Shown: positions 4,067 through 6,645 of the stretch, one piece after another
Layout of the letters: the number at the start of each line of letters is the position of its first letter
Position numbering within the stretch: the first letter of the stretch is position 1
NCBI GenBank assembly: GCA_029546925.1
Contig: JAKPQM010000036.1
Span: 1 to 64,000 of the forward strand
Direction: 5' to 3'
Length of the DNA stretch: 64,000 nucleotides
From: Actinomycetes bacterium
Lineage (GTDB): Bacteria > Actinomycetota > Coriobacteriia > Coriobacteriales > Atopobiaceae
Notes under the pieces: model-generated
The model's input: only the letters and a program-made list of their open reading frames with translations
Database searches by the model: none
Told to the model about the DNA's origin: nothing
Program-made: the position numbers and the translations under genes

Positions 4067-4813
4067 CTATCGCACTTCGAGAATCGCATACTGGTTGAGG
4101 TCGCCCGACGCTCCGTCCGCCCGATAGCGATCCATCACGCGCGCATACGAGGCGACATCCTTGAGCAGCGCATCGATCTCGCTATCGGGAAAATGATGAC
4201 AGAAGCGGAAGGCATCCCCCTCGTCCTGCCACCCCATAAGATAGTCATCCGATCCCAGACCGGAAAGATCGTAGCGCATCCGCGCAGCTTCGGTCGCGGC
4301 ACGTGCCTTCCCAAGCAGCCGCTCATCATGCGCGAACTGCCAGAACGATACGGCAACAATGCCATCGGGGCGAACCATGCGCACGAGCAGCTCCAGCAAC
4401 CGCGCCCGCTGCTCGGGGAGGGGCAGGTGGTGCATGAACGCGAGGCACACCGCGGCATCGCAGGGCGGAGCCTCAAGCGATGCGAGGGCTATGCCCTCCT
4501 CCAGAAGCAACTCGGCGAGATCGAGGTGCTGGTAGCGGATGCGCGCATCATCCGTCTGAGCCAGCTCATCGCATGAATCGACCGCCCAAGCCTGCGCGGC
4601 GGGCACGCACTTGAAGAGCTCCCTCTCAAAGCGGAGGTTGCCGCATGCGAGGTCGAGGACCTCCATGCGCCCGTCCTGATCGGGATGCAGGAAATCGAGG
4701 ATGCGCGTCCACCCCGGCCATGCGCTTCCGCGCGTCCGCGAGAAGGACTCACCCACCCGACGGTAGAAATCGCCGGTCAAGCTGGAGAGCTGCTGTGCGG
4801 TATCGCGGTCCAC
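4067..4813 (-). CDS. Trm9/ALKBH8-like SAM-dependent methyltransferase
   Basis: A 248-residue class I methyltransferase. Motif I is VLDLACGN (residues 52-59) and motif IV AVCLAFMHHLP (near 121-131). Several features resemble the eukaryotic tRNA wobble-uridine methyltransferases Trm9/ALKBH8 rather than generic methyltransferases: FYRRVGESFSRTRGSAWPGW (16-35) parallels their FSxTRxxxWP signature, DYLMGW (190-195) parallels DVxVPW, and RFCHHFPDSEID parallels RYYHxFxxGEL. Trm9 methylates the carboxymethyl group installed on U34 by Elongator; here the divergent neighbour 50 bases away is an Elp3 homologue, which supports that role. Start is GTG at 4813 with GAAGGGA upstream. The family call is by eye, so a different small-molecule or RNA substrate remains possible. 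Confidence 0.7.
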   Translation of the reverse strand: MDRDTAQQLSSLTGDFYRRVGESFSRTRGSAWPGWTRILDFLHPDQDGRMEVLDLACGNLRFERELFKCVPAAQAWAVDSCDELAQTDDARIRYQHLDLAELLLEEGIALASLEAPPCDAAVCLAFMHHLPLPEQRARLLELLVRMVRPDGIVAVSFWQFAHDERLLGKARAATEAARMRYDLSGLGSDDYLMGWQDEGDAFRFCHHFPDSEIDALLKDVASYARVMDRYRADGASGDLNQYAILEVR

Positions 4814-4849
4814 GAGTGCGGGTTCCCTTCGCCATCAGGGGTTCTACAG

Positions 4850-4855
4850 TATAAT
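4850..4855 (+). promoter_or_regulatory. Consensus -10 box directly before elp3
   Basis: A perfect TATAAT at 4850-4855 ends eight bases before the ATG at 4864. With the usual 6-8 base spacing, transcription would start at or within two bases of the A of the start codon. No Shine-Dalgarno sequence is present, so the elp3 mRNA is predicted to be leaderless. The -35 region is weak (TTCGCC around 4828). Confidence 0.6.
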
Positions 4856-4863
4856 AGCCTGTC

Positions 4864-6645
4864 ATGGAGCGCATCATCCAAGATATCGTTTCCGCTGTTC
4901 GCTCGGCACATCGCCCGCCCGACGAGGCATGGCTTGCCAAGCTCATCCGCCGCTACAACAAAGACGTGCGCGACGTTGCACGCCACACGAAAAAGCAGCA
5001 GATCCTCGCCTTCTATCGCAAGGCCAGGGAAGAGCGCGGCCCGCTCTGGGAGAGCTGGGGCATCGGCGCCGAGGAAGACCGCCAGATACTGCGCTTGCTC
5101 AAGGTCAAGCCGCGGCGCACGGCATCGGGTGTGGCCACCATCACGGTCCTCACCATGCCCCACCCCTGTTCGGGCGCGTGCCTTTACTGCCCGAACGATA
5201 TCCGCATGCCCAAGAGCTACCTCGCGAACGAACCTGCCTGCCAGCGGGCGGAACGCAACTTCTTCGATCCCTACCTGCAAGTCCGCGCACGTCTCGCCCT
5301 GCTCGAATCGAACGGCCACATAACCGATAAGATCGAGCTCATCGTGCTCGGCGGCACGTGGAGCGACTACGACCCCTCCTACCAGATCTGGTTCATATCC
5401 GAGCTCTTCCGTGCGTTGAATGACGGCGACGGGGAGGCCGAGCGCGTTTGCGCAGAACGTGCGGCCTTCTATCGGAGCTGCGGACTCATCGCCGAGGCCG
5501 ATACACTTGCCGAGCAAACACGCGACCTGCAAAGATGCGTTACGGCAGGTGCCTTAAGCTACAACCAGGCGATCGCACGGCTCTATGCGAGCGAGGCTTG
5601 GGTGCGGGCCCGCGCACGGCAGACCGCCGCCTTCGGGGAACTCGAAGAGCAGCAGCGCATAAACGAGAGCGCCCATCATCGCGCGGTCGGGCTCTGCGTG
5701 GAGACCCGCCCCGATCTCGTAGACGATGCAAGCGCCCAGCTCATGCGTCACCTCGGCTGCACCAAGGTCCAGATGGGCATCCAAAGCCTCGATCAGGACA
5801 TCCTCGACGCATGCGGCAGGCACATACGCGTCGAGCAGATCGTCCGTGCATTTTCCGTCCTGCGCCTCCATGGCTTCAAGATCCTCGCCCACATGATGGT
5901 GAACCTCGTGGGCTCCACTCCCGAGCATGACAAGCTCGACTACGGGCGGCTCGTAGGCGATCCGCGGTTCCTCCCCGACGAGATCAAGCTCTATCCCTGC
6001 GTCCTTGTAGAAAGCGCAGCCCTCGCGCGCCTCTACGATCAGGGCATCTGGCGCCCCTACACCGAGGACGAGCTGCTCGACGTGCTGGCGGCAGACGTTG
6101 CCGCCACCCCCGCCTACGTGCGCATCTCGCGCATGATCCGCGATATCTCCTCGGGCGACATCGTCGCCGGCAACAAGAAAACCAACCTGCGCCAGATGGT
6201 CGATGCCCGCACGGAGACCGCCGAGTCTGCGATTGCCGAGATCCGCTCGCGCGAGATCGCCACCGGGGACATGAGCGCCTGCGATGTGCGCCTCGATTGC
6301 ATAAGCTACACCACTGCGGTCTCCGAGGAGCGCTTCCTCCAGTGGATCACCGATGCGGGTTCCATCGCGGGGTTCCTGCGCCTGTCGCTACCGCATGGGT
6401 GCTCCACAGCCATGATCCGCGAGGTCCACATCTATGGTCGCGTGGCGGAACTCGGATCGATCGAGGCGGGCGGAGCGCAGCATCTCGGCCTTGGAAGCGC
6501 ACTCGTGGAGACCGCCTGCAAGCAAGCGTCTGCGGCAGGGTATAGCGCGATCAACGTCATCAGCTCCGTGGGCACGCGTGCGTATTACCGGAAACTTGGG
6601 TTTATCGATGATGGGCTCTACCAGAGGCGCATACTCGGAACCTAA
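4864..6645 (+). CDS. elp3: Elp3 homologue, radical SAM / GNAT tRNA wobble-uridine modification enzyme
   Basis: A 593-residue homologue of the catalytic Elongator subunit, which uses radical SAM chemistry and acetyl-CoA to put a carboxymethyl group on C5 of tRNA U34. The three cluster cysteines are at 102, 106 and 109 (PCSGACLYCPND). Further Elp3 hallmarks are VGLCVETRPD, CTKVQMGIQSLD, KILAHMMVNLVGSTPEHD, RISRMIRDISS and NLRQM. The C-terminal GNAT domain contains HLGLGSALVETAC and GTRAYYRKLGF. An acid- and alanine-rich insert lies near residues 185-265. It starts very close to a consensus -10 box and has no ribosome binding site. A Trm9-like methyltransferase is divergently transcribed next door, matching the next step of the eukaryotic pathway. 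Other Elongator subunits are absent, as expected in bacteria. Confidence 0.9.
   Translation: MERIIQDIVSAVRSAHRPPDEAWLAKLIRRYNKDVRDVARHTKKQQILAFYRKAREERGPLWESWGIGAEEDRQILRLLKVKPRRTASGVATITVLTMPHPCSGACLYCPNDIRMPKSYLANEPACQRAERNFFDPYLQVRARLALLESNGHITDKIELIVLGGTWSDYDPSYQIWFISELFRALNDGDGEAERVCAERAAFYRSCGLIAEADTLAEQTRDLQRCVTAGALSYNQAIARLYASEAWVRARARQTAAFGELEEQQRINESAHHRAVGLCVETRPDLVDDASAQLMRHLGCTKVQMGIQSLDQDILDACGRHIRVEQIVRAFSVLRLHGFKILAHMMVNLVGSTPEHDKLDYGRLVGDPRFLPDEIKLYPCVLVESAALARLYDQGIWRPYTEDELLDVLAADVAATPAYVRISRMIRDISSGDIVAGNKKTNLRQMVDARTETAESAIAEIRSREIATGDMSACDVRLDCISYTTAVSEERFLQWITDAGSIAGFLRLSLPHGCSTAMIREVHIYGRVAELGSIEAGGAQHLGLGSALVETACKQASAAGYSAINVISSVGTRAYYRKLGFIDDGLYQRRILGT

Follow-up and report, generated by a model that had tools for sequence, protein, structure and literature searches.

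A two-gene bacterial pathway leading from cm5U to mcm5(s2)U is by far the best reading of the locus analysed here, and we consider it likely, with the nucleoside itself remaining unproven. The locus lies within a stretch of DNA of 64,000 nucleotides (the window) and consists of a gene for Elp3 and, diverging from it, a gene for a methyltransferase resembling Trm9. A preliminary description, made from sequence alone, had suggested that the two might form a minimal mcm5U system; this suggestion was supported in all of our computational tests, and the product mcm5U is still an inference. The features of the locus are:

4067-4813, minus strand: reading frame of the Trm9-like methyltransferase, 248 residues, GTG start; predicted carboxyl methyltransferase converting cm5U34 to mcm5U34
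4814-4863, no strand: divergent intergenic region, 50 bases between the two start codons
4864-6645, plus strand: reading frame of Elp3, 593 residues; predicted to make cm5U34 from acetyl-CoA (radical SAM / GNAT)

The locus and its Elp3

Both reading frames, their divergent layout and the 50-base gap were confirmed exactly as the preliminary description had placed them, as were the sequence features it had named, namely Cys102/106/109, ETRPD and a C-terminal GNAT domain in Elp3, and FSRTRGSAWP, DYLMGW and RFCHHF in the methyltransferase. The GTG start of the methyltransferase is supported because its orthologues, when aligned, share the same first residue. Reading of the intergenic sequence revealed a TATAAT (4850-4855) that stops 8 bases short of the elp3 ATG. 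Since a consensus scan of 4814-4863 did not detect a complete sigma-70 pair, this is a -10-like hexamer only; were it the -10 box, the elp3 mRNA would be leaderless or nearly so. The neighbours of the pair in the window are msrA and luxS. Among named organisms, the closest relative is Coriobacteriales bacterium OH1046, whose methyltransferase is 70% identical, which places the source of the window among the actinomycetes of class Coriobacteriia; the scan of named genomes gave two relatives only.

The window protein is a true Elp3 of the TIGR01211 family in which the catalytic residues are present, with E520 at the position of Q461 in MinElp3, the archaeal Elp3 that we used as the reference for mapping residues. 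It matches TIGR01211 over its full length (residues 68-587) with 393.5 bits against a cut-off of 350, and it matches Elp3 structures in the PDB from bacteria, archaea and eukaryotes with E values from 1e-83 to 1e-60. The Fe-S cysteines C102, C106 and C109 align with C90, C95 and C98 of MinElp3, and K156, K339, K375, Y377, H522 and Y574 with K150, K266, K302, Y304, H463 and Y517. Among these, K156, K339 and Y574, together with E520 at the Q461 position, are the residues for acetyl-CoA and its hydrolysis, while K375 and Y377 belong to the rSAM site. The replacement of Q461 by glutamate is a conservative change, and the pocket of the Dehalococcoides mccartyi Elp3 likewise has a glutamate, E386, according to the paper describing it. 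Three further cysteines of MinElp3 (C384, C386 and C389) are replaced by I, E and S; their loss does not exclude membership of the Elp3 family, because the site is an interdomain linker and not catalytic. Since the catalytic residues are retained, we infer that the window Elp3 should be active, and its synthesis of cm5U34 is likewise an inference. Two further peculiarities of the protein, relative to the D. mccartyi enzyme, are an insertion inside the radical SAM part, at residues ~190-256, and ~80 additional residues at the N terminus.

Identity of the neighbouring methyltransferase

That the neighbour of elp3 is Trm9-like, and more than a generic methyltransferase, is well supported, whereas its activity is inferred. 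Taken alone, the window protein gave only generic class I matches in Pfam (with Methyltransf_23, _25 and _11 over their cut-offs) and NCBIfam, and its matches to the PDB were weak, led by the uncharacterised 3sm3 (E 1.6e-4) and followed by the Yarrowia Trm9, 5cm2 (E 6.1e-4). Owing to this weakness, we built a profile from an alignment of 41 orthologues (A1), for which Trm9 (5cm2) became the top match in the PDB with an E value of 3.5e-9, the next chain standing at 4.6e-4. Adding distant elp3-linked relatives to this profile (A2) gave 3.7e-17 for Trm9 and 9.7e-10 for the next match, and one such distant bacterial relative, searched on its own, gave 1.9e-18 against 5.1e-13. Thus the Trm9-like identity proposed in the preliminary description held, the best profile match being Trm9, well separated from the small-molecule methyltransferases.

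The alignment of A1 with Trm9 covers profile positions 26-223, which is more than the SAM core, and takes in, one after the other, the TRxxxWP motif, HH, the W in 'VWAL', DxxxxW and RYxH (RYxHxxxxxE at the C-terminal side). The generic class I matches, in contrast, were mostly confined to the SAM-binding core, and the uncharacterised 3sm3 has, within the aligned portion, nothing that corresponds to N59 and H128. On the strength of the gap in the profile search and of the conserved residues outside the core, we reject a generic small-molecule methyltransferase.

In the Saccharomyces enzyme (ScTrm9), the substitutions R29A, H115A, R241A, Y243A and N271A reduce tRNA binding and catalysis (PMC5372719). 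Transferring the ScTrm9 numbering via the alignment with the Yarrowia enzyme and the shared motifs, we find counterparts of R29, H115, R241 and N271 in R28, H128/H129, R203 and N240, all conserved in the 41 orthologues. Across a diverse set of 63 sequences, R28, H128 and R203 are kept without exception and N240 is kept in 60, the other three being unaligned at this point (gaps). N271 lies beyond the aligned part of the Yarrowia Trm9, and its match to N240 is based on location alone, in the last strand near the C terminus. The fifth position, that of Y243, is occupied by cysteine (C205) in 61 of the 63 sequences, by tyrosine in one distant member and by phenylalanine in one. A cysteine at one of the five mutated positions makes the claim to a Trm9 somewhat weaker without excluding it.

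The AlphaFold model of the methyltransferase (pLDDT 95) has two extra strands outside the core, at 190-195 and 198-206, which fit the lid region of Trm9. A fold search with this model across 350,542 chains placed Trm9 (5cm2) at rank 9, with METTL6 also in the top ten; METTL6 and an uncharacterised archaeal methyltransferase ranked above it. This search was unselective, however, returning 1030 chains at E<=0.001.

Linkage to elp3 and pathway context

A functional linkage of Elp3 and the methyltransferase is well supported by their distribution. Of the 140 family genomes, 70 contain the methyltransferase and 71 contain Elp3, with both present in 69 and neither in 68; one genome had the methyltransferase only and two had Elp3 only. 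These single-gene exceptions (G004, G053 and G071) come from fragmented assemblies, or a contig ends close to the expected site of the partner. The co-occurrence has a Fisher p of 4e-36, a value that overstates independence, the genomes being related. All 69 pairs lie on one contig and are divergent, and 63 of them are within 1.2 kb. Furthermore, G026, a genome complete in one contig (99%), has neither gene; as its four congeners carry both, the two appear to have been lost together.

In a sample of 396 genomes from the phylum, Elp3 was found in 32 and the methyltransferase in 28, every one of the 28 also carrying Elp3. Of the four with Elp3 only, two (G210 and G401) do have a divergent adjoining homologue of the methyltransferase that fell under the search threshold, a third (G358) stops just past the start of Elp3, and the fourth (G332) holds a C-terminal methyltransferase fragment beside an assembly gap. 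We considered a joint deletion in this last genome and dropped it, as a run of N separates the genes and the case is hence uninformative. Where the two genes fall on separate contigs (G225 and G390), the 5' ends of both point toward contig ends. The linkage extends to other families of the order and to distant Actinomycetota. Two members of a single genus (G310, L199, and G395, L200) have the pair on the same strand with Elp3 upstream, and three families (f26, f35 and f64) combine an archaeal-type Elp3 (~600 bits) with a much diverged homologue of the same methyltransferase. In the distant lineages the neighbouring genes differ, and include carbamoyltransferases, an F420-associated zincin and leucyl-tRNA synthetase.

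Chance adjacency is ruled out by the 69 linked pairs out of 69 and by recurrence with other neighbours, and synteny inertia alone is ruled out by the same-strand arrangement in G310 and G395 and by the different flanking genes in distant lineages. The preliminary description had asked for conserved linkage with elp3 in relatives; we checked this, and it held across the family and beyond it, both in further families of the order and among distant Actinomycetota. Evolutionary distances of the methyltransferase and Elp3 are correlated (Mantel r 0.88), but this is expected from shared vertical descent and we do not count it as evidence.

The archaeal-type Elp3 of f26, f35 and f64 occurs in distant small-genome lineages (L136, L137, L138, L139 and L134/L135), whose methyltransferases are nearer to the eukaryotic Trm9, with an RYYH motif in L139. 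In one genome an additional full-length methyltransferase copy lies apart from Elp3, on a separate contig (G425:C4:255276-256094, L201).

The preliminary description had left open whether an mcm5U system would stand instead of, or beside, the usual bacterial MnmE/MnmG pathway, and within the genomes searched both enzymes are absent, which is compatible with the first option. MnmG (TIGR00136) was over its cut-off in 0/140 genomes of the family and in none of another 26 genomes with Elp3 from the order and the phylum, giving 0/166 in total. The controls Escherichia coli and Bacillus subtilis were positive in this search, and the actinomycete control Corynebacterium glutamicum gave no match. A weak MnmG match in the source genome was rejected as TrmFO, and the below-cut-off matches found in nearly every genome cover the same stretch as the TrmFO one, in frames of similar length. 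MnmE (TIGR00450) was over its cut-off in 0/40 relatives; its matches were restricted to the GTPase segment, under the cut-off, and were likewise rejected. We read these absences as compatibility with the proposed pathway and not as replacement, because Elp3-less relatives lack MnmE/MnmG too and C. glutamicum gave no MnmG match either. About half of the family genomes (for example G026, G057, G060 and G084) are without both Elp3 and MnmG, and MnmE was over its cut-off in none of those tested.

The source genome does contain MnmA, and therefore thiolated tRNAs could become mcm5s2U. Candidate substrates are also encoded, in the form of tRNAs for Lys(UUU), Glu(UUC), Arg(UCU), Gly(UCC) and Leu(UAA), alongside C34 isoacceptors for Lys, Glu, Arg(CCU) and Gly. 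Among the 43 tRNA matches in this 142-contig assembly, Gln is represented by Gln(CUG) only, and the failure to find a Gln(UUG) may reflect an assembly gap or a real loss.

A Trm112-like protein had also been named in the preliminary description as something to look for, and a search with PF03966 found no small standalone one, giving weak matches inside larger frames only (in the source genome, 22.6 bits within a frame of 777 residues). If the methyltransferase is a Trm9, it therefore probably works without Trm112, an inference that rests on the lack of a standalone partner.

Proposed pathway, rival readings and known systems

In the pathway that we propose, a lone Elp3, without other Elongator subunits, would add a carboxymethyl group to C5 of U34 by radical chemistry from acetyl-CoA, yielding cm5U on tRNAs predicted to include Lys(UUU), Glu(UUC), Arg(UCU) and Gly(UCC). 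The Trm9-like enzyme would bind cm5U34 via R28, H128, R203 and N240 and transfer a methyl group from SAM to the cm5U carboxylate, giving mcm5U without Trm112, and mcm5s2U on those tRNAs thiolated by MnmA. The pair would take the place of the absent MnmE/MnmG. Our analysis establishes the identity of the genes, the conserved residues, the co-occurrence and linkage, the lack of MnmE/MnmG, and the presence of MnmA and of candidate tRNAs. The reactions, their order, their product, the set of tRNAs and the independence from Trm112 are all inferred, and no nucleoside data exist for these organisms.

The rival that survives best, though we regard it as unlikely, is that the methyltransferase acts on the Elp3 product, or on the same anticodon loop, to give a product other than the plain methyl ester, for example by methylating another position near U34 or a further derivative of cm5U. 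In its favour, linkage and co-occurrence point to a shared pathway and not to the atom that is methylated, METTL6, which ranks above Trm9 in the fold search, is a tRNA m3C32 methyltransferase, and Y243 of Trm9 is not conserved. Against it, the remaining four mutated active-site residues of Trm9 are all retained, Trm9 is the best sequence-profile match by five to seven orders of magnitude, and METTL6 is not among the listed sequence matches.

A second rival, which we hold to be very unlikely, is an unrelated small-molecule or lipid methyltransferase whose only tie to elp3 is a common divergent promoter. The purely generic class I matches of the window protein in Pfam and NCBIfam would allow this, but the gene co-occurs with Elp3 throughout, is found in a same-strand layout in one genus, recurs with a different type of Elp3 and other neighbours, and encodes Trm9-specific residues outside the SAM core. 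Least probable of all is that cm5U is converted to ncm5U or left unchanged and that both proteins have since taken on a regulatory function or one unrelated to tRNA, for example protein acetylation and methylation; eukaryotic Elp3 has proposed non-tRNA roles and nucleoside data are lacking here, but the radical SAM cysteines and the residues for tRNA-coupled acetyl-CoA hydrolysis are intact in Elp3, and the tRNA-binding residues of Trm9 are conserved in its partner.

The two-gene mcm5(s2)U pathway, as the preferred reading, resembles that of eukaryotes, where Elongator acts with Trm9-Trm112 or ALKBH8-TRMT112. Shared with it are the radical SAM/KAT enzyme Elp3, the TRxxxWP, HH, DxxxxW and RYxH motifs and C-terminal asparagine of Trm9, and the co-existence of an s2U34 thiolase, although this is MnmA here and Tuc1/Ctu1 in eukaryotes. 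The present system differs in being bacterial, in the adjacency of its two genes, in the cysteine at the Y243 position and in that further Elongator subunits are not expected; and whereas the eukaryotic Trm9 needs Trm112, no standalone Trm112 was found with the bacterial pair. An Elp3-Trm9 pair has also been predicted in the archaea Haloferax volcanii and Sulfolobus solfataricus, with the genes clustered in the latter (PMC2584109, PMC5372719). That pair similarly combines an Elp3 lacking Elongator partners with a Trm9 homologue, but it is a prediction only, whereas the pair described here is bacterial and systematic in Coriobacteriales. Within the bacteria, the Elp3 of Coriobacteriales is diverged (~390 bits) compared with the archaeal-type Elp3 (~600 bits) of other actinobacterial lineages, and the window Elp3 shares its domains and catalytic residues with the D. 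mccartyi Elp3, also bacterial, for which a structure has been solved. The bacterial MnmE/MnmG pathway to (c)mnm5U34 (with MnmC and MnmL/MnmM) modifies C5 of the same wobble uridine, but by aminomethylation, as opposed to the carboxymethylation of Elp3.

In textbooks, (c)mnm5U34 is the bacterial modification and mcm5U34 the eukaryotic one. Bacterial Elp3 has been regarded as a rarity (PMC6367351), and a 2017 review described bacterial genomes as being without detectable genes significantly similar to Trm112-dependent methyltransferases (PMC5372719). Neither a bacterial Trm9 nor bacterial mcm5U is reported in the literature that we searched, which did not extend to most subscription papers. What is new here is, by inference, the same chemistry as that of the known Elp3-Trm9 pair, in another domain of life and with fewer parts.

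The linked Trm9 indicates a probable purpose for this bacterial Elp3, and a two-protein system might make it possible to reconstitute the whole conversion of cm5U to mcm5U in vitro with neither Trm112 nor the Elongator scaffolds. A bacterial pair also bears on the question of whether mcm5U predates eukaryotes. A bolder reading, which we regard as fairly probable, is that mcm5(s2)U34, a nucleoside held to be eukaryotic and predicted in some archaea, serves in the decoding of split codon boxes throughout a substantial branch of Actinomycetota, made by only two proteins, a lone Elp3 and a Trm112-independent bacterial Trm9. If so, these bacteria would possess a natural minimal Elongator pathway standing in for MnmE/MnmG.
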